A program made the position numbers and the translations under genes. A DNA stretch of 64,000 nt from Solidesulfovibrio carbinolicus. GTDB lineage: Bacteria; Desulfobacterota; Desulfovibrionia; Desulfovibrionales; Desulfovibrionaceae. The stretch is from NCBI RefSeq assembly GCF_004135975.1, contig NZ_CP026538.1, positions 4,030,001 through 4,094,000 of the forward strand, written 5' to 3'. The notes below the pieces were generated by a model, which saw nothing but the letters and a program-made list of their open reading frames with translations, had not been told where the DNA came from and did not search any database. Below, piece after piece: positions 1,278 to 18,416 of this stretch. The first letter of the stretch is position 1, and every line of letters starts with the position of its first letter.

Positions 1278-1307
1278 TTGACGCCCTTGCCTCCTCCCGG
1301 CTATTGC
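1278..1307 (+). promoter_or_regulatory. Candidate promoter for the metE riboswitch transcript
   Basis: TTGACG (1278-1283), an 18-base spacer and TATTGC (1302-1307). Its position, directly upstream of the riboswitch, is what makes it plausible; the boxes themselves are average. Confidence 0.4.
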
Positions 1308-1317
1308 CCCCCCTGTC

Positions 1318-1482
1318 TGCTTGGCAGACGGACCTTTCGAGAAACGGAAGACGGTGGGAATCCGTCGCAGTCGCGCTGCTGTATTCGGGGTTATTGGCCG
1401 ACCTCCACTGGGTGTTCCCGGGAAGGACAAGGCCGCTGCCGCCGGTCGAAACGACCCGCCCCGTAAGCCAGAAGACGCCTCG
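1318..1482 (+). promoter_or_regulatory. Cobalamin (B12) riboswitch upstream of metE
   Basis: The region carries the ordered conserved blocks of an adenosylcobalamin riboswitch. These are GGTGGGAATCCGTCGCAGTC followed by GCGCTGCTGT (around 1353-1382), then CCACTGGGTGTTCCCGGGAAGG (around 1405-1426; the B12-box side, quoted in part: CCACTG and CGGGAAGG), and a closing GTAAGCCAGAAGACGCC (1463-1479). It lies before the B12-independent methionine synthase and is followed by a terminator, so the expected logic is that ample B12 switches metE off in favour of the B12-dependent enzyme. Family knowledge supports this pairing; the 3-D fold was not computed. Confidence 0.85.
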
Positions 1483-1570
1483 AAAACGGTCGGCATTCGG
1501 GCCTCGCGCAAAGGGCCGGAGTGACCAGCGACGGCAATCGGCGACGTCCGGGCCGTTTCTCGCACCCGTG

Positions 1571-1603
1571 CCCGTTCCCTCTGCCGGGAACGGGTGTTTT
1601 TTT
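1571..1603 (+). terminator. Intrinsic terminator of the metE riboswitch
   Basis: An 8-bp perfect stem, CCCGTTCC with GGAACGGG (1571-1578 and 1587-1594), is followed by TGTTTTTTT. It sits between the riboswitch and metE, and is the likely expression platform for B12-dependent premature termination. Confidence 0.8.
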
Positions 1604-1676
1604 CGCGTCTCCCCATTCCCCGCAAGGGGACATGCCGACCTCCCCAAACGCCTTCGGGCAAACAGGAGGACCTCGC

Positions 1677-3983
1677 ATGATCACCCACTCCCTGGGCTTT
1701 CCCCGCATGGGGCTGGCCCGCGAACTCAAGACCGCCCTTGAAGCCCGCTTCGCCGGGACCCTCGACGCCGCAGGACTGGCCCGCGTGGCGGCCGACCTGC
1801 GCCTGCGCCACTGGCGGCTCCAGGCCGCGGCCGGGATCGACCTCGTGCCGGTCGGCGATTTTTCCCTCTACGACCACATGCTCGATCTGGCCGTGCTTTT
1901 CGGCGTCGTGCCCGCCCGCTACGGCCATGCCGGCGGACCGGCGGACGAGGCCCTCTACTGGCGCATGGCCCGGGGCGAGGCCGGCACGGATGGCCGCGTC
2001 ACGGCCCTGGAAATGACCAAGTGGTTCGACACCAACTACCACTACCTCGTGCCGGAATTCGAACCGGACCAGAGCTTTGCCCTGGTCGGCACGACAATCC
2101 TCGACGAGGCGGCCCAGGCCCGGGCCGCCGGGTTCACGCCCAAGGCCGTGCTGCCCGGACCGGTCACGTTCCTGATGCTCGGGGCCTGCGCCGGCGAGCC
2201 CTTCGACCGCCTGGCCCTGCTGCCGCGCCTGCTGCCGGCCTACAGCCAACTCCTCGCCAAGCTGGCCGAGACCTGCCCCTGGATCGAACTCGACGAGCCG
2301 GTCCTGTGCCAGGATCTGCCGGCTGACGCCCTGGCCCCCTGCCGGGCGGCCTGGACCGCCCTGGCCGAGGCCGCCGCCCCGGCCCGCCTGCTGCTGGCCG
2401 CGCCCTACGGCAGTCTGGCCCACAATCTGGACTTCGTGCGCGACCTCCCCGTGGGGGCGCTTCATATTGATCTCGTGCGCGACCCCAGCCAGCTCGCCCT
2501 GGCAGCCAAGGCCCTGGCCCCCGAGACCGCCCTGTCCCTGGGTCTGATCGACGGCCGCAACATCTGGCGGGTGGACGCCGCCGCGGCGCTAAGCCGCATC
2601 GCCCTGGCCGCCGAACGCCTGGGGCCCCGGCGCCTCATGCTCGCCCCGTCGTGTTCCCTGCTCCACTGCCCCGTGGACCTTGAGGCCGAAACGGACCTCG
2701 ACCCGGAAATCCAATCCTGGATGGCCTTTGCCGTGCAGAAATGCCGCGAAGTCCGCCTGCTGGCCGACGCCGCCGCCCCGAGCGGGGCCGGTCGGCCCGA
2801 GGTGGCCGACGCCCTGGCCGAAAACCGCCGGGCCTGGGAATCGCGCCGGGCCAGCCCCCGGCTGGCCGATGCGGCCGTGCGCCGCCGCACGGCCGCCGTC
2901 AGCCAGGACATGTTCCACCGCCCGGCTGCCTTTGCCGCCCGCGCGCCGCTCCAGGCCGAAGCCTTGCAGCTTCCCCTGATCCCGACCACCACCATCGGTT
3001 CCTTTCCCCAGACCCCGGAGATCCGCCAGACCCGGGCCAAGTTCCGCCGGGGCGAGCTTGCCGCCGCCGCCTACGAGGCCTTCGTGCGCGGCCAGGTGGC
3101 CGAGGCCGTGGCCCGCCAGGAGGCCCTGGGCCTGGACGTGCTGGTCCACGGGGAGCCTGAGCGCAACGATATGGTGGAGTTTTTCGGCGAAAAGCTCGCC
3201 GGTTTTTGCTTCACCCGAAACGGCTGGGTGCAAAGCTACGGCTCGCGCTGCGTCAAGCCGCCGGTCATCTACGGCGACGTGTCGCGCCCCGGCCCCATGA
3301 CCATCGGGCTGGCCGTTTTCGCCCAATCCCTCACCGACAAGCCGGTCAAGGGCATGCTCACCGGCCCTTCGACCATTTTGGCCTGGAGCTTTGTGCGCGA
3401 CGACCAGCCCCGGGAGGTGACCCGCCGCCAGATCGCCCTGGCCGTGCGCGACGAGGTGGCCGATCTGGAGGCCCAGGGCATCCGCGTCATCCAGATCGAC
3501 GAGCCGGGGCTGCGCGAAGGCCTGCCCCTGCGACGGCGCGACTGGGAGACCTCCCTGGCCCTGGCCGTGGACGACTTCCGCCTGGCCGCCGCCGTGGCCA
3601 AGGCCGAAACCCAGATCCACACCCACATGTGCTACGCCGACTTCGATGAGATCGTGCCCGAGGTGGCCGCCATGGACGCCGACGTGATCAGCGTCGAGGC
3701 CAGCCGCAGCCGCATGGCCCCCCTGGCCGCCTTTGCCCGGGACGGCTACCCCAACGCCATCGGACCGGGCCTGTACGACATACATAGCCCGCGCGTGCCC
3801 TCGGCCGAGGAAATGGAAGATCTGCTGCGGCGGGCCGCCGCCCTCATCGACCCGGCCCGGCTGTGGGCCAACCCGGACTGCGGCCTCAAAACCCGCGCCT
3901 GGGACGAGGTCACGCCGTCCCTGGCCAACATGGTCGCGGCGGCCCGACGCCTGCGGGCGCAACTGGCCGGGCAAGGCTTGTGA
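1677..3983 (+). CDS. metE: Cobalamin-independent methionine synthase
   Basis: A 768-residue 5-methyltetrahydropteroyltriglutamate-homocysteine methyltransferase, close to the usual 750-760 residues. It makes methionine in the cytoplasm by direct methyl transfer from folate to homocysteine. The N-terminal half begins MITHSLGFPRMG. The C-terminal catalytic half starts near IPTTTIGSFPQT. Zinc ligands are visible in HTHMCY (His and Cys) and in NPDCGLKTR near the C-terminus. The ATG was chosen because AGGAGG lies 8 bases upstream; the open frame extends further upstream, but that part covers the riboswitch terminator. It is a single gene under riboswitch control, followed by the aromatic operon leader. 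Confidence 0.96.
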   Translation: MITHSLGFPRMGLARELKTALEARFAGTLDAAGLARVAADLRLRHWRLQAAAGIDLVPVGDFSLYDHMLDLAVLFGVVPARYGHAGGPADEALYWRMARGEAGTDGRVTALEMTKWFDTNYHYLVPEFEPDQSFALVGTTILDEAAQARAAGFTPKAVLPGPVTFLMLGACAGEPFDRLALLPRLLPAYSQLLAKLAETCPWIELDEPVLCQDLPADALAPCRAAWTALAEAAAPARLLLAAPYGSLAHNLDFVRDLPVGALHIDLVRDPSQLALAAKALAPETALSLGLIDGRNIWRVDAAAALSRIALAAERLGPRRLMLAPSCSLLHCPVDLEAETDLDPEIQSWMAFAVQKCREVRLLADAAAPSGAGRPEVADALAENRRAWESRRASPRLADAAVRRRTAAVSQDMFHRPAAFAARAPLQAEALQLPLIPTTTIGSFPQTPEIRQTRAKFRRGELAAAAYEAFVRGQVAEAVARQEALGLDVLVHGEPERNDMVEFFGEKLAGFCFTRNGWVQSYGSRCVKPPVIYGDVSRPGPMTIGLAVFAQSLTDKPVKGMLTGPSTILAWSFVRDDQPREVTRRQIALAVRDEVADLEAQGIRVIQIDEPGLREGLPLRRRDWETSLALAVDDFRLAAAVAKAETQIHTHMCYADFDEIVPEVAAMDADVISVEASRSRMAPLAAFARDGYPNAIGPGLYDIHSPRVPSAEEMEDLLRRAAALIDPARLWANPDCGLKTRAWDEVTPSLANMVAAARRLRAQLAGQGL

Positions 3984-3992
3984 AAATAGTCC

Positions 3993-4026
3993 TTGACAGG
4001 AAGCAAGAGGGGAACGTACCCGTATT
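3993..4026 (+). promoter_or_regulatory. Possible promoter of the aromatic operon
   Basis: A perfect TTGACA (3993-3998) begins 10 bases after the metE stop codon. No good -10 is seen at 17 bases (GTACCC); a poorer CGTATT lies at 4021. Transcription could instead start inside metE. Its place just ahead of the leader peptide is the main argument. Confidence 0.3.
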
Positions 4027-4030
4027 GCCC

Positions 4031-4120
4031 ATGCAGACCCTCCACACCCCCACCACCGGCTTTTACTTTTGGTACTGGTTTAGCCACGCCCGTGGTCTGG
4101 GGGGGTTGCGGTCGAACTAG
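4031..4120 (+). CDS. Aromatic leader peptide (attenuator) of the aro-trp operon
   Basis: A 29-codon open frame whose residues 11-17 read FYFWYWF: seven consecutive aromatic amino acids, covering Phe, Tyr and Trp. It ends at a TAG 24 bases before a hairpin-plus-T-run terminator, and the first structural gene of a 14-kb aromatic amino-acid operon follows. This is the classical arrangement for ribosome-mediated attenuation, as known for trpL and pheL: scarcity of any of the three charged tRNAs would stall the ribosome and favour an antiterminator. A GAGGGG stretch lies 18-24 bases upstream, further than usual for a ribosome binding site. The mix of all three aromatics suggests one signal for the whole family, consistent with an operon that makes all three. 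Confidence 0.85.
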   Translation: MQTLHTPTTGFYFWYWFSHARGLGGLRSN

Positions 4121-4144
4121 GTCAATCGCAAACGAGCCTCTCCA

Positions 4145-4180
4145 GGGCCGCGGGCATTACGCCGGCGGCCCTTTTTTATT
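4145..4180 (+). terminator. Attenuator terminator of the aromatic operon
   Basis: Stem GGGCCGC (4145-4151) with GCGGCCC (4165-4171), then TTTTTT. It lies between the aromatic leader peptide and the first operon gene. A short CACGCCCGTG hairpin inside the leader frame (4085-4094) is a candidate part of a competing structure. Confidence 0.8.
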
Positions 4181-4231: not shown

Positions 4232-5029
4232 ATGCTGCTTGGGAAAGCCGTCCGCCTCGAACGCATTTTCAATCGCAACACCCACCGCGCCATCATCGTC
4301 CCCATGGACCACGGCGTCACCGTCGGCCCCATCTCGGGCCTCATCGACATGCGCGACGCCGTCAACCAGGTGGCCGAAGGCGGAGCCAACGCCGTGCTCA
4401 TGCACAAGGGCCTGCCGCGCTGCTCCCATCGCGGACGCGGCCGCGACGTCGGACTGATCATCCACCTGTCCGCTTCCACCAGCCTGTCGCCCTTCCCCAA
4501 CGCCAAGACCCTGGTCGGCACCGTCGAAGACGCCATCAAGCTCGGAGCCGACGCCGTATCCCTGCACATCAACCTCGGCGACGAGACCGAGCGCGACATG
4601 CTGGCCCACCTCGGCGAAACCACCTCCCGGGCCGCCGACTGGGGCATGCCCGTGCTGGCCATGGTCTATGCCCGAGGCCCCAAGGTCAAAAACGAGTACG
4701 ACGTGGACGTGGTGGCCCACTGCGCCCGGGTCGGCACCGAACTCGGCGCGGACGTGGTCAAGGTGCCCTACACCGGCGACATCGAATCCTTCTCCAAGGT
4801 CACCGACGCCTGCTGCATCCCGGTGGTCATCGCCGGCGGCCCCAAGATGGACAACGACCGCGACCTGCTGCAAATGGCCCACGACTCGGTCCAGGCCGGC
4901 GGCTCGGGCCTGTCCATCGGGCGCAACATCTTCCAGCACGCCCAGCCCGCCCGCATCGTCCAGGCCCTGCACGGCATCGTCCACCTCGACTGGGAAGTCG
5001 ACCAGGCCCTCGAACTCCTCAAGGATTAA
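4232..5029 (+). CDS. aroA': 2-amino-3,7-dideoxy-D-threo-hept-6-ulosonate (ADTH) synthase, DhnA-type aldolase
   Basis: A 265-residue DhnA/FbaB-like class I aldolase. In archaea, and by gene context in Desulfovibrio, this family supplies the first step of an alternative route to 3-dehydroquinate that avoids DAHP synthase. Family features include [13 protein letters not shown] near the N-terminus, the probable Schiff-base lysine in [11 protein letters not shown] and the phosphate-binding [10 protein letters not shown]. The start has AAGGAGA about 7 bases upstream. The next gene, a dehydroquinate synthase II, starts 3 bases after its stop, which strongly supports ADTH synthase over plain fructose-bisphosphate aldolase. 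It is the first structural gene after the attenuator. Confidence 0.85.
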
Positions 5030-5032
5030 GTC

Positions 5033-6007
5033 ATGACCAAAGAAATATGGCTCAAGGTCGTTCCCTTCGACAAAAACGTCATCACCCTCGGCCTCGAATC
5101 CGGCGTGGACGGATTCGTGGTCGAGGCGGCCGACGCCGACAAGGTGCTGGCCCTGGGGCGCACCCAGGTGATGACGCCCGATCAGTTCGAACTGATCCCC
5201 ATCTGCTGCAAGGATGACGAGGGAACGGCCATCGACTCCTTAAAGGCGTGTCGTCCGGTCTTTCTGGCCCAGGGCTGGGAGATCATTCCGGTGGAAAACA
5301 TCCTGGCCTGCACCGAAGGCCTGGGCCTGGAATGCGAGAGCCTGGACCGGGCGCGGCTGGCCGCCGGGGTTTTGGAGCGCGGCGCGGACAAGCTGCTCAT
5401 CACCCCCGAGGCCGTGTGCGATCTTAAAACCATCGTCAATGAACTGAAGCTCTCCCAGGGAACCATGGAACTCGCGGCGGCCACCATCACCAAGATCGAA
5501 CACGCGGGCCTTGGCCACCGGGTCTGCGTGGACACCACGAGCATTCTTAAAACCGGCGAAGGGATGCTTGTGGGCAACAGCTCGGCCTTCACCTTCCTGG
5601 TCAACGCCGAAACCGAGTCCAATCCCTACGTCGCCGCCCGGCCGTTTCGCATCAACGCCGGCGCCGTCCACGCCTATTGCCAGATGCCCGGGGACAAGAC
5701 CCGCTACCTCGAAGAGCTGGCCTCGGGCTCGGAAGTGCTGATCGTCTCCCACAAGGGCGCCACCAAGACCGCCGTGGTCGGCCGGATCAAGACCGAAATC
5801 CGCCCCATGCTGCTCATCACCGCCTCCGTGGGCGGCAAGGAAGGCAAGGTGTTCCTGCAAAACGCCGAAACCATCCGCCTGGTCACCCCCGAGGGCAAGC
5901 CCGTCAGCGTGGTGGCCCTTAAGGAAGGCGACACGGTGCTCGTTTCCACCGACGTGGCCGGACGCCACTTCGGCATGCGCATCGCCGAAGAGATCAAGGA
6001 AGGATGA
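5033..6007 (+). CDS. aroB': 3-dehydroquinate synthase II
   Basis: A 324-residue archaeal-type dehydroquinate synthase, unrelated to classical AroB. It oxidatively deaminates and cyclises ADTH to 3-dehydroquinate. Typical family stretches are seen: MTKEIWLKVVPFDK at the N-terminus, VCVDTTSILKTGEGMLVGN in the middle (quoted in part), and MPGDKTRYLEEL. The length matches the family (about 320-370). It is packed 3 bases after the ADTH synthase and 1 base before pheA, so it is co-translated with both. Confidence 0.92.
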   Translation: MTKEIWLKVVPFDKNVITLGLESGVDGFVVEAADADKVLALGRTQVMTPDQFELIPICCKDDEGTAIDSLKACRPVFLAQGWEIIPVENILACTEGLGLECESLDRARLAAGVLERGADKLLITPEAVCDLKTIVNELKLSQGTMELAAATITKIEHAGLGHRVCVDTTSILKTGEGMLVGNSSAFTFLVNAETESNPYVAARPFRINAGAVHAYCQMPGDKTRYLEELASGSEVLIVSHKGATKTAVVGRIKTEIRPMLLITASVGGKEGKVFLQNAETIRLVTPEGKPVSVVALKEGDTVLVSTDVAGRHFGMRIAEEIKEG

Positions 6008-6008
6008 C

Positions 6009-7163
6009 ATGAACCCGGACACGACTAAGCCTGCCGTCGCCCCGGGTTCCCTGGAGGAGGCGCTGCTCGAAATTCGTCGCGGCATCGACGCCGTGGACGA
6101 CGAGATCGTGGGCCTGCTCAACAAACGCGCCGCCCTCAGCCTTGAGGTGGGGCGGCGCAAGGACGGCCGGGCCAGCGCCATCTTCAAGCCCTTCCGCGAA
6201 CAGGAAGTGCTGGCCCGCCTCACCGCCGCCAATCCCGGACCGCTGCCCAACAACCATCTGATCGCCGTCTACCGCGAAATCCTGTCCTCCTCCAGACGCC
6301 TCCAGCGCCCCGAACGGGTGGCCTACCTCGGCCCCGAAGGCACCTTTTCCCACTTCGCCGCCATGGCCGCCCTGGGCCATTCCCCGGATTTCCTGCCCCA
6401 GACCACCATCGGCGACGTGTTCGCCGCCGTGGCCGGCAAGCAGGCCGACCTGGGCGTGGTGCCGCTGGAAAACTCCCTCCAAGGCACCATCGGCCAGAGC
6501 CTGGACAACTTCCAGCGCTACAACGTCTTTATCCAGGCCGAGATCACCTGCCGGGTCAGCCACGCCCTGCTCTCCACGGCAACGAGCCTGGACGCCGTGG
6601 AAATCGTCTACTCGCACCCCCAGCCCCTGGCCCAGTGCGCCGGCTGGCTCAAGACCCATCTGCCCCGGGCCAAGGTCATCCCCACCGACTCCACCGCCGC
6701 CGCCGCCGCGCGACTGGCCGGAGAGCCGAACGCCGCCGCCATCGGCCACCTGCGCCTGGCAGCCATGCACCACCTTAATGTGCTGGCCAGCCCCATCGAG
6801 GACCTGCCCGACAACTGGACGCGGTTTTTCATCATCGGCCCCGAGGACACCAAGCAGCAGACCCGGGACAAGACCTCGCTGCTTTTCACCGTGCCCAACA
6901 AGCCCGGCTCCCTGCATCAGGTGCTGGCCCATCTGGCCGGCGAAGGCATCAACCTGACCAAGCTCGAATCGCGGCCCATCCGCGGCGAAAAATGGCAGTA
7001 CTTCTTCTTCGCCGACCTGCAATGCGACCTCACCCGCGAGGAATACAAGAAGCTCCTGGCCACCCTGACCGAAAATACCCACAGCCTGCGCATCCTCGGC
7101 TGCTACCCGGCCGGTCCCCAGGTGGACCTGGCCGAAGGCGCGACGGATAAGGGCGACGCGTAG
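6009..7163 (+). CDS. pheA: Bifunctional chorismate mutase / prephenate dehydratase
   Basis: 384 residues with three parts in order. An AroQ-type chorismate mutase spans about 15-95 (IRRGIDAVDDEIVGLLNKRA). Prephenate dehydratase spans about 100-280 (VAYLGPEGTFSH and the later catalytic-site region). A C-terminal ACT domain spans about 290-370 (TSLLFTVPNKPGSLHQVL and LESRPIRGEKW), which binds phenylalanine for feedback inhibition. It converts chorismate to phenylpyruvate in the cytoplasm. It starts one base after the upstream stop. A GC-rich palindrome follows within 30 bases of its stop. Confidence 0.95.
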   Translation: MNPDTTKPAVAPGSLEEALLEIRRGIDAVDDEIVGLLNKRAALSLEVGRRKDGRASAIFKPFREQEVLARLTAANPGPLPNNHLIAVYREILSSSRRLQRPERVAYLGPEGTFSHFAAMAALGHSPDFLPQTTIGDVFAAVAGKQADLGVVPLENSLQGTIGQSLDNFQRYNVFIQAEITCRVSHALLSTATSLDAVEIVYSHPQPLAQCAGWLKTHLPRAKVIPTDSTAAAAARLAGEPNAAAIGHLRLAAMHHLNVLASPIEDLPDNWTRFFIIGPEDTKQQTRDKTSLLFTVPNKPGSLHQVLAHLAGEGINLTKLESRPIRGEKWQYFFFADLQCDLTREEYKKLLATLTENTHSLRILGCYPAGPQVDLAEGATDKGDA

Positions 7164-7381: not shown

Positions 7382-8719
7382 ATGCCGATCATCACCGCGC
7401 CGCCTTCCAAGTCCGTGTCCCACCGGGCCGTCATCGCCGCCAGCCTGGCCGCCGGCACCAGCCGCCTCACGGGTTTGCTCGATAGCCAGGACATTTCCCG
7501 CACCCGGGACTGCATGATTGCCATGGGCGCGGCCATGCACCCCCAAAGCGACGGCTCCGTGGTCGTCTCCGGCACCGCCGGCCGGCCCCTGGGCGGCGAA
7601 GACGAAGAAGAACATTCCGTCGCCCTCGACGTCGGCGAATCCGGCACCACCTGCCGCCTGCTCGTGGCCGTGGCCGCCGCCGGACGCGGCCATTTCCTGG
7701 TGCGCGGCCACGGCCGGATGCACGACCGCCCCATCGGCGAACTCGTCAACGCCCTGCTGCCCCTTGGCCCGGAATGCCTCTACCTCGAAAAATCCGGCTG
7801 CCCGCCCCTGGCCATCGTCACCCAGGGCCTGGCCGGCGGAACCACCGCCATCTCCCTGGAAGACAGCTCCCAATATCTCTCCGGGCTGCTGCTGGCCGCG
7901 CCCATGGCCGCCGGACCGCTGACCATCGAGATCATCGGCAAGAAAACCGTGTCCTGGCCCTACGTCGCCATCACCCTGTCCACCCTGGCCGATTTCGGCG
8001 TGCCCTTTGCCGTCCAGACCCGCCAGGGCGACGCCTGGGTCGAGGCCGACTGGCGCGCCATCACCGACGTCGTGCCCGGCCAGATCCGCTTCGCCATGCA
8101 GCCCGCCCGCTACAGGCCGCGCGAGTACGCCGTGGAAGCCGACTGGTCCAGCGCCTCCTACTTCCTGGCCGCCGGCGCCGTGGGACCGGCCCCGGTCACC
8201 GTGGCCGGCCTGCGCCAGGATTCGCTCCAAGGCGACCGGGCCATCCGCGACATCCTCGCCCGCATGGGCGCGCGCATCGAGGAAACGGCCGAAGGCCTCA
8301 CCGTCTTCCCGTCCGAACTGCACGGCCAGGAACTCGACATGGGCCGCTGCCCCGACCTCGTGCCCACCGTGGCCGCCGCCGCCTGCTTCGCCTCGGGCGA
8401 GACCATCATTAAAAACGTCGCCCACCTGCGCCTCAAGGAGTCCGACCGCATCGAAGCCGTGGCCGAAAACTGCACCCAGGCCGGAGCCGTGGTCACCACC
8501 CTGCCCGACGGGCTGCGCATCAAACCCAAAGCCCTGCGCACCGACCAGCGCGTGGAATTCTCCGCCTTCGACGACCACCGTTTAGCGATGTCCGCCGCCA
8601 TCTTCGAACTGGCCGGCATCGACGTGGTCATCGACAACCCCGGCTGCGTGGCCAAATCGTTCCCTACCTTCTGGGACAAATGGGAAGCCATACGCGAAGC
8701 GCTGCAGGACGAAGGGTAG
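7382..8719 (+). CDS. aroA: 3-phosphoshikimate 1-carboxyvinyltransferase (EPSP synthase)
   Basis: 445 residues, the usual EPSP synthase length. It joins shikimate-3-phosphate and phosphoenolpyruvate in the step before chorismate. Seen: the N-terminal PPSKSVSHRAVI (phosphate-binding Lys/Ser), DVGESGTTCRLL, GHGRMHDRPIGEL, and the C-terminal LRLKESDRIEAVAENC and DDHRLAMSAAIF. The ATG at 7382 follows GAGGA by about 6 bases; an upstream in-frame alternative start exists, but it falls in the repeat element. It is the fourth gene of the aromatic operon. Confidence 0.95.
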   Translation: MPIITAPPSKSVSHRAVIAASLAAGTSRLTGLLDSQDISRTRDCMIAMGAAMHPQSDGSVVVSGTAGRPLGGEDEEEHSVALDVGESGTTCRLLVAVAAAGRGHFLVRGHGRMHDRPIGELVNALLPLGPECLYLEKSGCPPLAIVTQGLAGGTTAISLEDSSQYLSGLLLAAPMAAGPLTIEIIGKKTVSWPYVAITLSTLADFGVPFAVQTRQGDAWVEADWRAITDVVPGQIRFAMQPARYRPREYAVEADWSSASYFLAAGAVGPAPVTVAGLRQDSLQGDRAIRDILARMGARIEETAEGLTVFPSELHGQELDMGRCPDLVPTVAAAACFASGETIIKNVAHLRLKESDRIEAVAENCTQAGAVVTTLPDGLRIKPKALRTDQRVEFSAFDDHRLAMSAAIFELAGIDVVIDNPGCVAKSFPTFWDKWEAIREALQDEG

Positions 8720-8898: not shown

Positions 8899-9801
8899 AT
8901 GCCAGATACGAACAAACCGGCAACATCCCCCTCCACCCAGGAAAAAGTTTTTGGGGAAGGAGGGGGGCCGGGGGAGGAAACCCCTTTTTTCAAAAAGGGG
9001 TTTCCTCCCCCGGGCGCGCCGCGCGCCATTTCCACTATCGCCCTGGTCGGGGCGCGGGGGGGCATGGGCCAGCTTATCGCGGCCAAATGCCGGGCGGCGG
9101 GCGTGGCTGTTCGGGAGTTGGACCGGCCGCTGACTGATGACGGCATCGCGGCGGCGCTGGCCGGGGCGGACATGGTGCTCGTTTCGGTGCCGGTCTACGC
9201 CACGGCCGAGGTGACGGCCAGGCTCGCGCCGTATCTGGCCGCGCCGCAGATTCTGGCCGACGTCGGGTCGGTCAAGACGCTGCCTATCGCCGCCATGGTC
9301 GAGGGCTACGCCGGCCCGGTGGTGGGCACGCATCCGCTTTTCGGCCCGGCTCCGGCCCAGGACGACGGGCTGCGGGTGGCGGTCATGGACGGCCGGCCCG
9401 GGCAGGACGTCTGGGCGACCGAGCTTGTGGCCGACTGGTGCCGCCGCATCGGCTTTGCCCCTTTCCCGTCCACGGCCGAGGAGCACGACAAGGCGGCGGC
9501 CTATGTCCAGGGCCTCAATTTCGTCACCACCGTGGCGTATCTGGCTTCCCAGACGGCCGGCGGCGAGGTGCGCAAGTACTTAACGCCCTCCTTCGAGCGC
9601 CGGCTGGTTTCGGCGGAAAAACTCATCACCAAGGACGCGGCGCTATTCACGGCCCTTTTCGAAGCCAACCCGCACAGCCATGAGGCCGTGCGAAACTACC
9701 GGAATTTCCTCAATATCGCCGCTGGCGGCGACATCGACCTGCTGGTGCGCCGGGCCGAGGCCTGGTGGACCGAGAAGACGGAAAAAAAGGACAACCCATG
9801 A
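8899..9801 (+). CDS. tyrA: Prephenate dehydrogenase, with a palindromic repeat in its N-terminal coding part
   Basis: A 300-residue NAD(P)-dependent enzyme converting prephenate to 4-hydroxyphenylpyruvate for tyrosine. The dinucleotide motif ALVGARGGMGQLIA begins only near residue 49. Residues 1-45 are unusual (KVFGEGGGPG, TPFFKKGFPPPG) and are encoded by a perfect palindrome with 22-base arms at 8968-9013. Later features are family-like (VGTHPLFGP; AEEHDKAAAYVQGLNF). The start ATG has AGGAAG about 11 bases upstream. No credible downstream start was found before the nucleotide-binding motif, so the repeat is apparently translated. The stop overlaps the trpE start by 4 bases (ATGA). Confidence 0.85.
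   Translation: MPDTNKPATSPSTQEKVFGEGGGPGEETPFFKKGFPPPGAPRAISTIALVGARGGMGQLIAAKCRAAGVAVRELDRPLTDDGIAAALAGADMVLVSVPVYATAEVTARLAPYLAAPQILADVGSVKTLPIAAMVEGYAGPVVGTHPLFGPAPAQDDGLRVAVMDGRPGQDVWATELVADWCRRIGFAPFPSTAEEHDKAAAYVQGLNFVTTVAYLASQTAGGEVRKYLTPSFERRLVSAEKLITKDAALFTALFEANPHSHEAVRNYRNFLNIAAGGDIDLLVRRAEAWWTEKTEKKDNP
8941..9013 (+). repeat. Poly-T/poly-A palindromic element inside tyrA
   Basis: Arms of 22 bases (8968-8989 and 8992-9013) with a two-base centre: CCGGGGGAGGAAACCCC then TTTTT, mirrored. It is preceded by AAAAAGTTTTTGGGGAAGG. Similar elements, with the same preceding AGTTTTTGGGAAGG-like block, lie before trpB and before ubiA. Here the element is in frame within the N-terminal coding region. 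Confidence 0.85.
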
Positions 9802-11216
9802 GTGCGATCAAGCTCCGCCAGGAAGGGACGTGGCTGCCGGCCGACGTCCAGACGCCTATCAGCCTGTTTCTCGGGCTTGTGGGCGAACGGCCCGGAATCC
9901 TTCTCGAAAGCGCCGAAGTCGACGGCCGCCTGGGCCGATACAGCCTCATCGCCTGGGATTTCCGCCTGCGCATCCGTTTGAAGGACGGCAAGCTCGACGT
10001 CAGCGCCCGGGACCAGCGGCTGGCCGGCCTGGAGAAGCATTCCGGCCGGGGCATGATGGAGGGGCTTCGGGCCGTGCTTACCGACCTCAACATCCTGGCC
10101 CCCGAGGGTTTTGACGACGTGCCGCCCATCACCCGCTCCCTGGTGGGCTATTTCGGCTACGGCGTGGCCGGGGTGTTCGAACCCAAGCTGGCCAAGGTGT
10201 TGCCGCCCGACGAGGCCGAATTCTGTCTGGTCTTGCCCGGCCGGGTGGTGCTTTTTGACCATGTCAAGCACCGCTGCCTGCATCTGTCCCTCGACGAGGG
10301 CAAAAAGGCCAAGATCGAGCACGCCAACATCTTCGCGCCCATGAACCGGCCGGTGCTGGGCAAGGTGGTCAACACCCCGGACGCCGAGGGCTACATGGAC
10401 GCGGTGGCCCAGTGCAAGGAGATGATCCGGGCCGGCGAGTGCATCCAGACCGTGCTGTCCACCCGCTTTGCCGCACCGTTTTCCGGCGACCCGTTTGTGG
10501 TCTACCGCCGGCTGCGCCAGGTGAACCCCTCGCCCTACATGTTTTTCATGCGTTTGCCGCGCGTGACGCTGCTGGGGTCGTCGCCGGAGCTGCTCATCCG
10601 CTGCCGCGACGGCGAGCTGACCACCTGCCCCATCGCCGGCACGCGCCACCGCAGCGCCGATCCCGTCGAGGACGACCGTCTGGCCGAGGAACTGCTGGCC
10701 GATCCCAAGGAGCGCGCCGAGCACGTCATGCTGGTGGACCTTGGCCGCAACGACCTGGGCCGCATGGCCGAAAAGGGCACGGTGAAGGTGGAGAAGTTCA
10801 TGACCGTGGAGCGGTTTTCCCATGTCATGCACATCGTCTCCTATGTCACGGCCAAGCTCAAAAAGGGCCTCGACGCCCTGGACGTGCTGCAATGCGCCTT
10901 CCCGGCCGGCACGCTTTCGGGCGCGCCCAAGGTGCGGGCCATGGAGATGATCGCGGACCTCGAAAACGCCCTGCCGCGCGGCCCCTACGCCGGCTGCATC
11001 GGCTGGATCGGCCTGGACGAAGGCCATGTGAACCTCGACACGGGCATCACCATCCGCAGCATATGGATTCGCGACGGCATGGCCTCGTGGCAGGCCGGCG
11101 CCGGCATCGTCTACGACTCGGACCCGGCTTCGGAATGGAAGGAGTGTCAAAACAAGGCCCGGGTCATCGCCGAAGTGCTGGCCGCCAAGGAGGAAGGCGA
11201 TGTTTTTACTTATTGA
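9798..11216 (+). CDS. trpE: Anthranilate synthase component I
   Basis: A 472-residue chorismate-utilising enzyme that makes anthranilate with ammonia supplied by TrpG. Typical C-terminal catalytic motifs are visible: GECIQTVLSTRF, PSPYMFFMR, CPIAGTRHRS, HVMLVDLGRNDLGR, TLSGAPKVRAMEMI and GAGIVYDSDPASEW. The N-terminal part contains the inhibitor-binding region (LLESAEVDGRLGRYS), so tryptophan feedback is likely. It starts within the tyrA stop codon (ATGA) and overlaps trpG by 17 bases, so translation of the three is coupled. Confidence 0.95.
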   Translation: MSAIKLRQEGTWLPADVQTPISLFLGLVGERPGILLESAEVDGRLGRYSLIAWDFRLRIRLKDGKLDVSARDQRLAGLEKHSGRGMMEGLRAVLTDLNILAPEGFDDVPPITRSLVGYFGYGVAGVFEPKLAKVLPPDEAEFCLVLPGRVVLFDHVKHRCLHLSLDEGKKAKIEHANIFAPMNRPVLGKVVNTPDAEGYMDAVAQCKEMIRAGECIQTVLSTRFAAPFSGDPFVVYRRLRQVNPSPYMFFMRLPRVTLLGSSPELLIRCRDGELTTCPIAGTRHRSADPVEDDRLAEELLADPKERAEHVMLVDLGRNDLGRMAEKGTVKVEKFMTVERFSHVMHIVSYVTAKLKKGLDALDVLQCAFPAGTLSGAPKVRAMEMIADLENALPRGPYAGCIGWIGLDEGHVNLDTGITIRSIWIRDGMASWQAGAGIVYDSDPASEWKECQNKARVIAEVLAAKEEGDVFTY

Positions 11217-11772
11217 TAACTTCGACTCGTTCACCTTCAACGTGGTGCAGGCCTTCCAGCAGTGCGGCCACGATCCGGTGGTGCTCAAAAACGACGACCC
11301 CAAGATTCTGGAGCTGGCCGCCTCGGGCAAGCTGGAGAAGGTCTGCATCTCCCCCGGCCCGAGCAACCCCACCAACGCCGGGCTGTGCCTGCAATTTCTG
11401 GAGCTGTTGCCGGCCACGACCCCGGTCTTCGGCGTCTGCCTGGGCCATCAGATTCTGGGCCATTTCGCCGGCGCGCCGGTCGTGGTCGCCGACCGCATCA
11501 TGCACGGCAAAACCTCCGACGTGTACCACCGCGAAACCGGCCTGTTCGAGGGCCTGCCCAACCCCATGGAGTGCTGCCGCTACCATTCGCTTTTGGTGCT
11601 GGCCTCCAAGGCTCCGGACAAGCTCGAAATCACGGCCTGGACCGAACAGAACGAAGTCATGGGGCTGCGCTATCGGGACCGGCCCTGGGTCGGCGTGCAG
11701 TTCCACCCGGAGTCGGTGTTTACGCCCGACGGCATGAAGCTGATCGGCAATTTCCCGGATAAGATTTTGTAA
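11200..11772 (+). CDS. trpG: Anthranilate synthase component II (glutamine amidotransferase)
   Basis: A 190-residue class I glutamine amidotransferase that feeds ammonia to TrpE. The catalytic cysteine lies in VFGVCLGHQILG, the oxyanion region is ISPGPSNPT, and the catalytic His/Glu pair is in VGVQFHPESVF. The start overlaps trpE by 17 bases, with AGGAGG-like sequence within trpE. It is the last native-looking trp gene before the HEPN/NTPase interruption; a GTG start for the HEPN gene lies 12 bases after its stop. Confidence 0.95.
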   Translation: MFLLIDNFDSFTFNVVQAFQQCGHDPVVLKNDDPKILELAASGKLEKVCISPGPSNPTNAGLCLQFLELLPATTPVFGVCLGHQILGHFAGAPVVVADRIMHGKTSDVYHRETGLFEGLPNPMECCRYHSLLVLASKAPDKLEITAWTEQNEVMGLRYRDRPWVGVQFHPESVFTPDGMKLIGNFPDKIL

Positions 11773-12174: not shown

Positions 12175-12193
12175 CTTGAAGGGCAAAATAATC

Positions 12194-13870
12194 ATGTATA
12201 ATACCGCTAGAAAATCACTAAACGACTACTTAACACAGCATCTCGCATACAACACCACAAACGACTGCACACTTATAACGGGAGACTGGGGAACCGGGAA
12301 AAGTCATTTTATCAATCAGTACTTAGACAAACTTGCCAAAGATCAAAAAACAAACAGAATGATCATCTATACATCGTTATTCAAGGCGCACAGCATTGAC
12401 GCTTTGCAAAACGATGTTTTGTCAAAACACCAAAAGTGGAAAAAAGCCAGACAAAAGCTTGCGTTACTTTGGGGAGAAATAAAAAGTTGCATACCATACG
12501 CCTCATATGTCCCGACGAATTTTGTCTTTTCGCTCCTCGACGAGCAGGATTTTAAAAACTCCATAATTGTCTTCGATGATTTCGAAAGGCTTTCCCCAAA
12601 CATCGAACTTCAAAACGTTCTTGGTTACATTTCTGACCTAAAAGAAGTAAACAAATGCAAAATAATAATCATCACAAACGAACGCATCACAACAACAGAC
12701 AGCCCACAACCGCTTTACGATAGCGACAATGAACAAACACCAAAAAATAAAGTATTCCATGGCAAAGAAACATGGCACTCTTTTAAAGAAAAAATCGTTG
12801 ACAACTACTTCATTTTCAGACCAACCTCTGAAGAAAACATTGATATTTTACTCAACACCCACAAATTCAAGAATCTTTTATCTATCAAAGAAAAACTGTG
12901 TAGCCTCATAGAGGCTAACAAAATTATAAATATGCGTACAATACAAAAGATATTAAACAACATAAAACACTTTCCAATCATACTAAACAATCGACATTCA
13001 AAAATTTCACGCCAAAGCATAGAGTTCATTGTATCAAAAACGATAGAGCACAACCACAAAAACGTTGACAGAAGTAAATTTTACACAAGGTCTGCAACAG
13101 ACGAAGAAGCACCAGATGTCAACGCCATGATATTAGAGTTCATATTCTCTGGATACATCAATCTAGATCTGTTTAATAAATTATTCTCAGAATACATAAA
13201 AGAATCACGTCAAGATGAATCAATACACGAAACAATAACTAATTTTTATCACAATATTGGATCACACTCAAAAACTGCCACCGAAATGATCGTAAGCATC
13301 ATAAAGTCAAACAACGAACAGTTGCGCTACGGAACAATAATCAGGTTGCTTGTGTTTTTTCATAGGACAGACACCGATTTGTTTAACAAATACTCATACC
13401 TTTTTACCAAAATAATCACGTCAAGACTTCAGGAATACTATGCCCGACAAACTCTATATTCTGAAATTCATGAAACATTTCACGACATAGAGCACATATC
13501 ATTTTTAAATGAACTCGCAAAAGACGCTCTGGCAACAATAAACGCAAAAGAAAAAGAATCTATAATTTATAACGACGAAAAGATTAAAAAGATACTCTCT
13601 GCAAAAAACAGAATGAATAGCGACAAAACTATTACAAAAGACATTCCAAAGGAACGATGGCGAGACATAATCGAAAGGCGCGTCATAGACCTTCACGACG
13701 TCGCCATCATCCTAAATGATTGCTCCAAAGCGACACAAGATATGATTGTTTCAATTCTCCGTCCACTTCAAGGTGAACCATTTCTTAAAACCAAGCTCCA
13801 CGCATGTGGCCTTGAACAACACCTGCTTGAGCAGTTTTCGGAGGATACGCCAAATGGAAAAACACGTTGA
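12194..13870 (+). CDS. AT-rich KAP-like P-loop NTPase inserted in the trp operon
   Basis: 558 residues. Walker A is GDWGTGKS (30-37) and Walker B SIIVFDDFERLS (about 123-134, with DDFER), followed by KIIIITNER, a sensor-like strand. GDWGxGKS plus DDxxR is the KAP NTPase signature. The usual KAP membrane insertion is not obvious, although 90-115 is mildly hydrophobic. The remaining 400 residues are helical and charged, and I do not recognise them. Base composition is sharply AT-rich (AAA, ATA, TTA and AGA codons), unlike every neighbour, so recent transfer is likely. ATG chosen with GAAGGG about 9 bases upstream; a TTG lies at 12176. The 3' end overlaps trpD by 17 bases and contains the trpD ribosome binding site. 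Some KAP proteins act in phage defence; function here is unknown. Confidence 0.85.
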   Translation: MYNTARKSLNDYLTQHLAYNTTNDCTLITGDWGTGKSHFINQYLDKLAKDQKTNRMIIYTSLFKAHSIDALQNDVLSKHQKWKKARQKLALLWGEIKSCIPYASYVPTNFVFSLLDEQDFKNSIIVFDDFERLSPNIELQNVLGYISDLKEVNKCKIIIITNERITTTDSPQPLYDSDNEQTPKNKVFHGKETWHSFKEKIVDNYFIFRPTSEENIDILLNTHKFKNLLSIKEKLCSLIEANKIINMRTIQKILNNIKHFPIILNNRHSKISRQSIEFIVSKTIEHNHKNVDRSKFYTRSATDEEAPDVNAMILEFIFSGYINLDLFNKLFSEYIKESRQDESIHETITNFYHNIGSHSKTATEMIVSIIKSNNEQLRYGTIIRLLVFFHRTDTDLFNKYSYLFTKIITSRLQEYYARQTLYSEIHETFHDIEHISFLNELAKDALATINAKEKESIIYNDEKIKKILSAKNRMNSDKTITKDIPKERWRDIIERRVIDLHDVAIILNDCSKATQDMIVSILRPLQGEPFLKTKLHACGLEQHLLEQFSEDTPNGKTR

Positions 13871-14864
13871 ATGCCTCGAACTCTTGGCCATCGGCAAGGA
13901 CCTGCCCGCCGATCTCGCCACCTACGCCTTCCGGGCCATGTACACCGGCGAAATGCCCGCCTCGTGCGTGGGCGCGTTCCTCATGGGCCTCAAGACCAAG
14001 GGCGAGGCCGCCGTGGAAATCGCCGCCGGCGTCACCACCGCCCTGGAACAGGCCCGCTTGGTCGAAGGCCTCACCGGCCCGCGCATCGACACCTGCGGCA
14101 CCGGCGGCGACAACACCTGCTCGTTTAACTGCTCCACCGCCGTGGCGCTGTACCTCGCCGCCATGGGCCACAAGGTCGTCAAACACGGCAACCGCGCCGT
14201 GTCCAGCGCCTGCGGCAGCGCCGACGCCGTGGAATCCCTGGGCTTCCCCCTGGTCGTGGAACCCGACGCCGTGGCCGCCGAGCTGGACAAGCACAACTTC
14301 GTCTTCCTCTTCGCCCCCAACTACCATCCGGCCTTCAAGCGCATCGGCCCCATCCGCAAGGAACTCGGCGCGCGCACGCTGTTCAACCTCATGGGGCCGC
14401 TTTTGAACCCCGCCCGGCCCACGCACCAGATTCTCGGCGTGCCCACCTCGCGCCACGTCCCGCTCATGGCCGAGGTGCTGGCGCTCACCGGCCTGTCGCG
14501 CGGCGTGGTCGTCCACGGGGCCGGCGGCTTTGACGAGCTGACCCCGTTCGGCCCGGCCGACGTGTGCTGGGTCAAAGACGGCTGGCTCAAAAAGGAGCGC
14601 ATCGACCCGGCGACCCTTGGCGTGTCCGAAAGCAAGCTCGGCGACGTGGTGGTCTCGGGCCGCGACGAGGCCGTGGCCGTGCTGCAGGAGGTGCTCTCCG
14701 GCAAAGGCCCCCAAGCCATGCTCGACATGGTGGCCCTTAACCTCGGCTGCGCTCTGCACCTGCTCGAAGACGGCCTGACCCTGCGCCAGGGCGTGGACAA
14801 GGCCAAGGACGCCATCGCCCAGGGCGCGGCGGCCGCGTTTTTCAAGGACGTGTTCCATGCTTGA
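13854..14864 (+). CDS. trpD: Anthranilate phosphoribosyltransferase
   Basis: 336 residues. It transfers phosphoribose from PRPP to anthranilate. Motifs: IDTCGTGGDNTCSFNCST (PRPP loop), KHGNRAVSSACGSADAVE, and NLMGPLLNPARPTHQILGV. Its ATG at 13854 lies inside the 3' end of the KAP-like gene, with CGGAGGA 8-9 bases upstream also inside that gene, so expression now depends on transcription and perhaps translation through the foreign gene. The 3' end overlaps trpC by 8 bases. Confidence 0.95.
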   Translation: MEKHVECLELLAIGKDLPADLATYAFRAMYTGEMPASCVGAFLMGLKTKGEAAVEIAAGVTTALEQARLVEGLTGPRIDTCGTGGDNTCSFNCSTAVALYLAAMGHKVVKHGNRAVSSACGSADAVESLGFPLVVEPDAVAAELDKHNFVFLFAPNYHPAFKRIGPIRKELGARTLFNLMGPLLNPARPTHQILGVPTSRHVPLMAEVLALTGLSRGVVVHGAGGFDELTPFGPADVCWVKDGWLKKERIDPATLGVSESKLGDVVVSGRDEAVAVLQEVLSGKGPQAMLDMVALNLGCALHLLEDGLTLRQGVDKAKDAIAQGAAAAFFKDVFHA

Positions 14865-15627
14865 GAAGTTTCGGGCCGCCAAGGCGGCCGAAGTGCGCCG
14901 GCTGGTCGGCCTTGAGGCGGCCCAGCAGTTGCCCGAGCCATATAGGGGCAAACGGCCGTCCTTTTCCGACGCGCTCATCGCCAAGGCCCCCATGGCCGTC
15001 ATCGCCGAGTACAAGCGGGCCTCCCCATCCATGGGCGACATCAACCTGGGCCTTGGCCCGGACGACGTGGCCGCCATGTACGCCGCCTCGGGAGCCGCCG
15101 CCATCTCGGTCTTGACCGAAGAAACCTACTTCAAGGGGTCGCTGGACTACCTCGAAACCATGAGCCGCTGCGGCCTGCCGCTTTTGCGCAAGGACTTCCT
15201 GCTCCATCCCTTGCAAGTGGTGCAGACGGCGGCCACCAAGGCCTCGGCCTTGCTGCTGATTGTGCGGATGCTCACCGATGTGGAATTAAACGAGATGCTG
15301 CGCCTGACCTACGACGCGGGCCTGGAAGCCGTGGTCGAGGTCTTTGACGAGCGCGACCTGGAACGCGCCGAAGCCGCCGGCGCGCACATCATCCAGGTCA
15401 ACAACCGCGACCTGGATACGCTCAAAACCGACTTCGCCGTGGCCACCCGGCTGGCCGCCTACAAACGCCCCGGCCGGCTGTGGATCGCCGCCAGCGGCAT
15501 CAAGACCCGGGCCGACGTGGACGCCATGCAGTCGCTGGGCTTCGACGCCGTGCTGGTCGGCACCTCCATCATGGCCGAGGCCGACCCCGGCGCGGCCCTG
15601 GCCCGGCTGGCCGGGAGCGCGGCATGA
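14857..15627 (+). CDS. trpC: Indole-3-glycerol phosphate synthase
   Basis: A 256-residue TIM barrel that closes the indole ring. AVIAEYKRASPSMGDI carries the catalytic lysine region, followed by SVLTEETYFKGS, LLRKDFLLHPLQV, IQVNNRDLDTLKTD and IAASGIKTRADV. It starts 8 bases before the trpD stop and ends 4 bases into trpF, so it is part of a tightly coupled trpDCF block. It is separate from trpF, unlike the fused enterobacterial enzyme. Confidence 0.95.
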   Translation: MLEKFRAAKAAEVRRLVGLEAAQQLPEPYRGKRPSFSDALIAKAPMAVIAEYKRASPSMGDINLGLGPDDVAAMYAASGAAAISVLTEETYFKGSLDYLETMSRCGLPLLRKDFLLHPLQVVQTAATKASALLLIVRMLTDVELNEMLRLTYDAGLEAVVEVFDERDLERAEAAGAHIIQVNNRDLDTLKTDFAVATRLAAYKRPGRLWIAASGIKTRADVDAMQSLGFDAVLVGTSIMAEADPGAALARLAGSAA

Positions 15628-16247
15628 GCGCGCCCCTGGCCAAGGTCTGCGGCATGACCCGCGCCGAGGACGTCGTCGGCTGCGCCGAAGCCGGGGCCGA
15701 TCTGCTCGGCTTCATCTTCGCCGCCAAAAGCCCGCGCCGCCTGACCCCGGCCCAGGCGGCGGCCCTGCCGCGCGTGGCCGCCAAGCGCGTGGGCGTTTTC
15801 GTGGAGCAAACCCTCGAAGAAGTGCTCTGCATCATGGCCGAGGCCGAACTCGATCTGGCCCAGCTTCACGGCGGCCAGGACCCGGATTTCTGCCGGGCCG
15901 TGGGGCCGCAGCGCGTCATCAGGGCCTTCTGGCCCCAGAAGCACCCGACGCTGGGTAGCCTCGCCGCCGAGATGGCCGCCTTTGACGGCGCGGTCCGCTA
16001 CGCGCTGCTTGACGCCGGAACTTCCGGCGGCGGCCACGGCACATCCCTGGATTTCGCCGCCCTGGCCGAACTCGCCCCGCCCATGCCCTGGCTTTTGGCC
16101 GGGGGCCTGGGGCCGGACAACGTGGCCGAGGCGCTGCGCATCGCCAAGCCGCACGGCGTGGACCTCAACTCCGGCGTGGAATCCTCGCCGGGCCTCAAAG
16201 ACCTCCAAAAAGTCCGGAGGTCCCTTTGGTCCGTGAAAGGCGTGTGA
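15624..16247 (+). CDS. trpF: Phosphoribosylanthranilate isomerase
   Basis: A 207-residue TIM barrel. [20 protein letters not shown] holds the catalytic cysteine (VCG), [16 protein letters not shown] is the next signature, and [17 protein letters not shown] contains the catalytic aspartate. [11 protein letters not shown] and [16 protein letters not shown] form the phosphate site. The start overlaps the trpC stop (ATGA). It is followed by a 208-base gap with two palindromic elements before trpB. Confidence 0.95.
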
Positions 16248-16435: not shown

Positions 16436-16455
16436 CCGCCGGAGGCATCCTACTC

Positions 16456-17649
16456 ATGACCATTCATAAAAAAGGCTACTACGGCGACTTTGGCGGGCAG
16501 TTCGTGCCGGAGCTGCTCATGCCGCCGCTGTTGGAACTGGAAGAGGCCATGCGCACCATCGTGCCCAGCGAGCCGTTCAAGAAGGAACTCAACGCGCTGC
16601 TGGCCGATTACGTGGGCCGGCCGTCGCCGCTGTATCGCTGCCCCAACCTATCCAAGGAGCTGGGCTTTGATTTGTGGCTCAAGCGCGAGGATTTGAACCA
16701 CACCGGCGCGCACAAGATCAACAACACCATGGGCCAGGGGCTTCTGACCAAGTACATGGGCAAGACGGCGCTTCTAGCCGAGACCGGGGCCGGCCAGCAC
16801 GGCGTGGCCACGGCCACGGCCGCCGCCATGCTGGGCCTGGACTGCATCGTTTACATGGGGGCCGAGGACGTGGTGCGCCAGGCGCACAACGTCAAGCGCA
16901 TGAAGCTGCTTGGGGCCGAGGTCGTGCCCATCGAGTCCGGCACCAAGACCCTCAAGGACGCCATCAACGCGGCCCTGCGCTATTGGATCGCCGAGCAGGG
17001 CACGACGCATTACTGTTTCGGCACGGCCGCCGGACCGCATCCGTTTCCGCTTTTAGTGCGCGAGTTCCAGGCTGTTATTTCCCTGGAAGCCCGCGCCCAG
17101 TGCCTGGACAAGATGGGCCGGCTGCCGGACTACGTCGTGGCCTGCGTCGGCGGCGGCTCCAACGCCATCGGCATGTTCCACCATTTCGTGCCGGACGAAA
17201 CGGTCAAGCTCATCGGCGTCGAGGCCGGCGGCACGGGCGAGCCGGGCTGCTACCACAGCGCGCCCATAAGCCTTGGCACGCCCGGGGTGCTCCACGGCAT
17301 GCGCACCATGCTGCTGCAAACCAGCGAAGGGCAAATCGAACCGTCCCATTCCGTGTCGGCCGGCCTGGATTATCCCGGCGTCGGCCCGGAGCACGCCCAC
17401 TACGGGGCTTCCGGCCGGGTGCGCTACGACATCGCCGTGGACGATCAGGCCCTGGCCGCCTTCGAGGCCTTGTGCCGCCGCGAGGGCATCATCCCGGCCC
17501 TGGAGAGCTGCCACGCCGTGGCCTGGGTCCTTAATCACGCCGCCGAGATACCCAAAGGTTCCCAAGTCGTCGTCTGTTTGTCGGGACGCGGCGACAAGGA
17601 CCTCGGCATCATCGAGGCCCACGAAGCCAAGCTTGGAGGCGCGAAATGA
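16456..17649 (+). CDS. trpB: Tryptophan synthase beta subunit
   Basis: A 397-residue PLP enzyme that joins indole to serine. The PLP lysine lies in [29 protein letters not shown] and [13 protein letters not shown] (phosphate cradle) are conserved, and the N-terminal [14 protein letters not shown] is typical of the TrpB1 class. GGAGG lies 10 bases before the chosen ATG, directly after a palindromic element. It ends 4 bases into trpA (ATGA), as usual for trpBA, allowing equal synthesis of the two subunits for the channelled complex. Confidence 0.96.
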
Positions 17650-18416
17650 GCCAGTCCATCCTGACCACCCGCATCATGGAAGCGCTTGCCGCCGGGCGCA
17701 AGGCGCTCATTCCCTTCCTGCCCGGCGGTTTCCCGGACAAGGAACGCTTTTTCGACGAGCTGGCCGCCCTGGATGCCGGCGGGGCCGACATCATCGAGAT
17801 CGGCGTGCCCTTCTCCGATCCCGTGGCCGATGGGCCGGTGGTGGAGCAGGCCAGCCTGGATTGCCTGTTAAACGGCACCTGCCTGTCCTGGCTGTTCTAC
17901 GAACTGGAGAAGCGCAAGGGCCAGTACCGGGCGGGGCTTGTGCTCATGGGCTACTACAACCCGTTTTTGCAGTACGGCCTGGAGCAGTTGGCCGAGGACG
18001 CGGCCGACGCCGGGGTGTCGGGCTTTATTGTCCCGGACGTGCCCCTTGAGGAGTCCGGCCCGCTGCGCGAGGCGCTGGACAAGCACGGCCTGGACCTCAT
18101 CCCCCTGGTCGGGCTCAACACCTCCGAGGAGCGCTTGGCCGCCTACGCCAAAAACGCCCGGGGCTACGTCTACTTCGTGTCCGTGCTGGGCACCACCGGC
18201 ATGCGGGAATCGCTGCCCACCGAGGTCAAGGAACGTCTGGCCGCCGTGCGCCGCATTTTCAACGTCCCGGTGGCGCTCGGGTTCGGCATCAAATCGCCCG
18301 AGCAGCTCTACGCTTTTGGCGACCTCGTGGACGGCGTGGTCTTTGGTTCGGCGCTTATCGCCCACATCAAGGCCGGCGGCACGGCCGCCGAGTTCATGGC
18401 CCGCTGGCGCAGCTGA
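17646..18416 (+). CDS. trpA: Tryptophan synthase alpha subunit
   Basis: A 256-residue TIM barrel that releases indole from indole-3-glycerol phosphate for TrpB. Seen: [13 protein letters not shown], the catalytic glutamate in [16 protein letters not shown], the aspartate region [14 protein letters not shown], and the phosphate loop GFGIKSPEQ. It is the last gene of the aromatic operon. A GC-rich hairpin follows its stop. Confidence 0.96.

Follow-up and report, generated by a model that had tools for sequence, protein, structure and literature searches.

How could a single leader peptide with codons for all three aromatic amino acids control the genes that make them, and which of the three does it sense? 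The question is raised by a locus of Solidesulfovibrio carbinolicus in a window of 64,000 nucleotides, the whole stretch of DNA that was analyzed (contig NZ_CP026538.1, positions 4,030,001 to 4,094,000, numbered here from 1). We conclude, at a probability of about 0.85, that the locus is a ribosome-mediated transcription attenuator that senses several aromatic amino acids and has isozyme-specific variants. For the presence of an attenuator, the support is as strong as comparison of sequences can give.

Results

An aromatic leader frame and a terminator precede ADTH synthase

The first-pass annotation had described a 29-codon frame with the run FYFWYWF, followed by a hairpin plus T-run terminator and the ADTH synthase gene. 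All of these were found where it had placed them, the frame at 4031-4120 and the synthase gene at 4232-5029.

4031..4120, + strand: leader peptide gene, 29 codons from ATG to TAG, encoding MQTLHTPTTGFYFWYWFSHARGLGGLRSN; conserved in relatives
4061..4081, + strand: regulatory codons Phe-Tyr-Phe-Trp-Tyr-Trp-Phe, codons 11-17 of the leader
4118..4120, + strand: leader stop codon, TAG

Within the genus, the seven codons of the run vary by TTT/TTC, TAT/TAC or Phe/Tyr only. An in-frame TTG at 4025 was considered as an alternative start and rejected, since the genus alignment shows conservation of the ATG and none of the TTG. The following genes lie downstream of the leader.

4232..5029, + strand: ADTH synthase, first controlled gene (TIGR01949, 400 bits, cut-off 299)
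5033..6007, + strand: 3-dehydroquinate synthase II (NF002628, 580 bits, cut-off 508)
6009..7163, + strand: pheA, chorismate mutase/prephenate dehydratase (family score)
7382..8719, + strand: aroA (TIGR01356, 371 bits, cut-off 287)
8899..9801, + strand: tyrA, prephenate dehydrogenase (PF02153)
9798..11216, + strand: trpE (best family TIGR00564, under the curated cut-off; plus operon position)
11200..11772, + strand: trpG (TIGR00566, 193 bits, cut-off 121)
13866..14864, + strand: trpD, start uncertain (TIGR01245, 322 bits, cut-off 199)
14857..15627, + strand: trpC (family score)
15627..16247, + strand: trpF (family score)
16450..17649, + strand: trpB (PF00291 plus position)
17646..18416, + strand: trpA (PF00290)

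The earlier description of these genes as a complete aro-trp operon therefore has to be narrowed: the 12 aromatic-pathway genes are present, but aroD, aroE, aroK and aroC are absent from the operon run, and trpG and trpD are separated by two other genes. The first of these encodes a HEPN-domain protein (PF05168; 11785-12174, +) and is apparently retained within the genus, and the second, between the HEPN gene and trpD, encodes a KAP-type P-loop ATPase (12176-13870, +; PADLOC PDC-S49, E 4.6e-27; PF07693). The trpG-trpD gap in the closest relatives measures about 440-480 nt, enough for the HEPN gene but not for the ATPase as well. The ATPase thus seems to have been inserted recently, and it may be under the control of the attenuator. 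Among named relatives, the ADTH synthase is closest to that of Solidesulfovibrio aerotolerans (97%).

Rfam leader families gave no match in the window at the gathering threshold; the only Rfam matches were 6S RNA (RF00013; 57507-57687, -) and a cobalamin riboswitch (RF00174) that, in the region 1305-3983 (+), precedes a metE-like gene for a B12-independent methionine synthase. Between the end of the metE-like gene and the predicted aro promoter there are 10 nt. Its transcripts would also end at the terminator of the attenuator, and for those that read through, poor translation of the leader and termination there are to be expected.

Aromatic leaders are conserved upstream of ADTH synthase genes

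ADTH synthase genes were collected at family, order and phylum level, and aromatic-rich leaders were found upstream of them in Desulfovibrionaceae, in the order and in much of Desulfobacterota. Conservation across Desulfovibrionaceae, on which the first-pass annotation had made its reading depend, was thus borne out, and the run is kept in position and class phylum-wide. When the 300 nt upstream of 137 ADTH synthase genes were searched in any startable frame, 104 of the 137 regions held at least 7 aromatics in their densest 9-codon window, compared with none of 2740 dinucleotide shuffles, in which the maximum, 6, was reached 12 times; the aromatic run is therefore far beyond chance. With a leader defined by 5 or more aromatics within 9 codons, 179 of 213 non-redundant ADTH synthase genes had one; the 34 genes without such a leader were mostly lone copies or distant members. 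Because the sequences are related, the counts given here and below are not independent. The order of Phe, Tyr and Trp varies among leaders while class and place hold, as would be expected if the codons are sensed rather than if the peptide itself has a function.

Two variations in gene arrangement were seen. At six loci of Nitratidesulfovibrio-like genomes the leader is found about 300 nt ahead of the ADTH synthase gene, and some 200 nt 3' of the leader are unexplained sequence. At seven other loci a tandem pair of ADTH synthase genes heads the operon behind a single Phe/Tyr/Trp leader.

The leader overlaps an antiterminator that competes with the terminator

The RNA elements of the attenuator are listed below.

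4144..4178, + strand: intrinsic terminator, hairpin AGGGCCGCGGGCATTACGCCGGCGGCCCT (4144-4172, -24.6 kcal/mol) followed by the T-run TTTTTT
4088..4105, + strand: antiterminator 5' arm, GCCCGTGGTCTGGGGGGG, coding ARGLGG
4136..4155, + strand: antiterminator 3' arm, containing the terminator 5' arm
4046..4060, + strand: region 1, pairing with the antiterminator 5' arm if the leader is untranslated (putative protector; fold of 4031-4178)

The terminator hairpin, which T6 follows, ends 59 nt before the ADTH synthase start at 4232. When a terminator was defined as a hairpin of -8 kcal/mol or better plus a T-run, one was present 3' of the leader and before ADTH synthase in 173 of 179 cases, compared with 34 of 358 shuffled spacers, and the median distance from leader stop to terminator was 22-27 nt by class. 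A strict promoter plus terminator scan gave no match at the locus, which is explained by the weak -10 box and a mismatch in the hairpin.

Folding of 4031-4178 free of ribosomes, with the window sequence only, gave the region 1:2 pairing together with the terminator. An alternative antiterminator structure, which the first-pass annotation had proposed to look for, was found in the pairing of 4088-4105 with 4136-4155 and is supported by covariation. Its 5' arm is made of the last leader codons (consensus GCCNGYGGY, coding A-C/R/S-G), and the partner, CCRCNGGC, is the 5' half of the terminator. In 111 two-arm leaders, found by a loose consensus search that favors pairing at the fixed positions and leaves the variable position free, the variable pair N4:a5 was T-A in 59, C-G in 30, T-G in 14, A-T in 7 and mispaired in 1; it is thus paired in 99.1%, where shuffling gave 73% on average and 81% at most. 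In the window the covarying pair is 4091 with 4152. Among 34 distinct arm pairs, 14 helix cells had two-sided changes (shuffled mean 5.0; 0 of 500 as high), and the covariation score of the helix collapsed when it was slid by 1-3 columns. Because the terminator leaves the variable position unpaired in 86 of 121 cases, this covariation speaks for the antiterminator. That Cys, Arg or Ser can occupy one place in the peptide is accounted for by the RNA pairing, which sets the codon.

The predicted structure changed with the position of the ribosome. When the ribosome was placed in the run, the pairing of the terminator 5' arm in the antiterminator had a median, by class, of 0.68-0.83; the median was 0.12-0.33 with the ribosome at the stop and 0.53-0.57 with shuffled spacers. 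When stalls were simulated codon by codon in the window, this pairing was 0.83-0.92 for codons 11-16, 0.58 for codon 17, 0.22 for codon 18 and 0.07 for codon 19; from codon 20 on, the arm entered other, weaker pairings, and the probability of the full terminator was then 0.99. By this simulation, any of the seven codons can be a stall site, and antitermination fades at the end of the run. In 110 of the roughly 131 leaders with a recognized arm, the final aromatic codon ends exactly 6 nt (74 leaders) or 9 nt (36 leaders) upstream of the arm.

With the complete terminator present, equilibrium folding favored the antiterminator in only 28 of 169 leaders of the five main classes, and the energies of the two forms differ little; the equilibrium criterion, P(terminator)<0.5, is too strict, and pairing before the 3' arm is made was used instead. 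The equilibrium result speaks against the switch; the model needs the arms to pair before the 3' half of the terminator is made, and the order of synthesis is likewise required in other attenuators.

Promoter spacing predicts a leaderless message

4031..4031, + strand: predicted transcription start, the A of the leader ATG, from comparison
4017..4022, + strand: predicted -10 box TACCCG, weak; only its first two bases, TA, are conserved
3993..3998, + strand: predicted -35 box, TTGACA, of the leader promoter; exact TTGACA 29-32 nt before the ATG in most Desulfovibrionales leaders

Of 173 ATG leaders, 108 have a TTGACA box, one mismatch being allowed, at a distance of 28-35 nt ahead of the ATG. 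In these 108, positions +19/+20 after the -35 box are T (0.71) and A (0.79), a pyrimidine (C or T) and never G precedes the ATG in 98%, and a Shine-Dalgarno match is present in 13 and absent in 95. The other 65 leaders have a promoter further off or none that was found, and 50 of them carry a Shine-Dalgarno sequence. The first-pass annotation had assigned the leader start only a distant ribosome binding site; there is indeed no nearby site, but a leaderless mRNA explains the arrangement better. From the TTGACA spacing, the TA at +19/+20, the pyrimidine at -1 and the missing Shine-Dalgarno sequence, we strongly predict that the 5' end of the message coincides with the ATG or lies no more than a few bases from it. 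A literature search for a mapped 5' end of the leader found none. There is a likeness in Sinorhizobium meliloti, an alphaproteobacterium whose trpL/rnTrpL leader mRNA begins at the ATG of the leader peptide and is thus leaderless, but that leader senses Trp only (PMC7298713).

The leader codons follow operon content and isozyme

The leaders of operons that contain trp genes had Phe, Tyr and Trp codons in 60 of 60 cases. Four further trp-containing operons lacked a leader in the main scan: two have one further upstream (about -304), one is a contig-edge artefact, and one (L203) has another gene order. Among 28 operons with DHQS-II and no trp genes within reach, 18 had Phe, Tyr and Trp and 10 had Phe and Tyr; the match of leader to operon content is therefore not strict. 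Leaders of lone ADTH synthase genes contained Trp in 2 of 31 cases and Phe alone in 13, and where a genome had both kinds, the operon leader carried all three aromatics while the lone-gene leader had no Trp (14 of 14). The runs of the lone-gene leaders read FFFFFFF in several genera and SYYYYG or GPYYYYG in the genus of the window.

The organism itself has a second, lone ADTH synthase gene (L220:14201-15001, -), situated beside bioD/bioA/bioF-like genes and preceded by a Tyr-rich leader, MNARQTALRTVSFGPYYYYGLRARGLAGGAAD, with the run SFGPYYYY and a strong terminator of its own. In a search of this genome for further leaders, the leaderless-aromatic pattern was found once and a backwards control pattern 4 times. 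Those other five-codon Phe/Tyr runs of the genome that were inspected lay within long frames or antisense inside a gene (L284), and none was convincing as a leader.

In the ADTH synthase tree, 19 Phe-type lone isozymes formed one clade (98/84) and four Tyr-type lone isozymes a separate clade (98/84). The well-supported branches require at least 4 changes of the Phe-type label, implying that leader specificity changed more than once.

Taken together, these comparisons demonstrate the conservation of the leader, its terminator, the antiterminator pairing and the match between codons and operon. The codon content makes it likely that one sensor serves the three aromatics jointly.

Discussion

We infer that the leader is translated from a leaderless start and responds to each of the three amino acids, and we propose the following mechanism. 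RNA polymerase would start at or near the leader ATG, and a ribosome would load on the leaderless message. As long as none of the charged forms of tRNA-Phe, tRNA-Tyr and tRNA-Trp is in short supply, the ribosome would clear FYFWYWF and reach the stop at 4118, where it would cover or have passed the arm at 4088-4105, so that the terminator at 4144-4178 would form and the operon would be mostly off. If any one aromatic is scarce, the ribosome would wait on one of the seven codons, and since all seven lie upstream of the arm, the arm would be free during the stall; it would then pair with 4136-4155, which holds the 5' half of the terminator, and polymerase would continue into the operon. As a stall at any codon of the run would free the arm, the run would act as an OR gate: it would be enough for one of the aromatic end products to run short. 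In the same way, the Phe-rich or Tyr-rich runs of the lone ADTH synthase isozymes suggest that each copy of the first-step enzyme would answer a different shortage. A wider reading, to which we give somewhat better than even odds, is that of a re-codable attenuator used throughout the phylum and leaderless in Desulfovibrionales, with a Phe/Tyr/Trp OR gate on the trp operon and Phe-only or Tyr-only versions on duplicated ADTH synthase genes, control being set through the leader codons.

The attenuator could in practice sense a single aromatic, most likely Phe or Trp, with the other aromatic codons as passengers. The nearest studied device, AroR of Corynebacterium glutamicum, is likewise an attenuator before a first-step aromatic enzyme (PMC11802643; PMC4046766). 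It has three aromatic codons, Phe-Tyr-Phe, and no Trp, and it controls aroF, encoding DAHP synthase rather than ADTH synthase; Phe matters there while Tyr supply is without effect (PMC11802643), so mixed codons alone do not prove joint sensing. Passenger codons should, however, be lost, yet every one of the 60 trp-operon leaders retains all three aromatics despite differing order and number. Paralogues in the same genomes do drop Trp, and all seven codons of the run are placed where stalling frees the arm. We therefore regard single-aromatic sensing as unlikely, though it deserves serious consideration.

A different origin of the stall, with the same RNA switch, would be the aromatic nascent peptide or generally slow translation instead of uncharged tRNA. 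Dense aromatic runs could translate slowly, and in the leaders TTT is commoner than TTC (634/183) and TAT than TAC (361/151). The arrest peptides known to us have fixed sequences, however, whereas the order of residues is unconserved here and the residues follow the end products of the operon, and we consider such a stall improbable. There is a very slim chance that the frame is untranslated, a chance coding stretch in a plain terminator or trans-acting RNA that is conserved for the RNA alone. Such a reading would fit an ATG without a Shine-Dalgarno sequence in the window and the constraint that RNA pairing puts on part of the frame, but the most conserved feature is the aromatic codons, which are not part of the paired arms, changes of the run within the genus are synonymous or Phe/Tyr, and 50 of the 65 leaders with a more distant promoter, or none found, carry a Shine-Dalgarno sequence before a similar frame.

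The enterobacterial trpL and pheL leaders (Rfam Trp_leader RF00513 and Phe leader) resemble this attenuator in having a short frame with regulatory codons, an antiterminator opposed to an intrinsic terminator, and a biosynthesis operon downstream; they differ in that each senses one amino acid and has a led mRNA with a ribosome binding site. Codons for several end products in one leader are known from the multivalent attenuation of ilvGMEDA, ilvB and thr, where the amino acids sensed are different ones, the branched-chain amino acids or Thr plus Ile. The uORFC-13-1 motif of Acholeplasma is similar as a predicted Phe-codon leader with a terminator upstream of aroF, but its 24 examples contain Phe only and have a ribosome binding site (PMC8632094). 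Our literature search found nothing on aromatic leaders in Desulfovibrio or Geobacter, an older survey of proteobacterial attenuators (Vitreschak et al. 2004) lying outside it. The kind of attenuator is thus known, while its three-aromatic code and leaderless form provisionally appear to be new.

Desulfobacterota use the archaeal-type ADTH/DHQS-II route, and the literature searched held no description of how aromatic amino acid synthesis is controlled in the phylum. The attenuator offers a concrete, testable mechanism for this control, and by its logic most ADTH synthase loci in the phylum are expected to carry a small leader gene. If true, it would be an unusual sensor for three amino acids at once. 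It also comes as a natural series in which leader codons track operon content and isozyme, and leaderless forms of one leader stand in clear contrast to forms led by a Shine-Dalgarno sequence. The isozyme-specific codon sets are the most interesting part. In E. coli, isozyme-specific control is exerted by TyrR, TrpR and the allostery of three DAHP synthases; if our reading is true, changed leader codons would do the same here.
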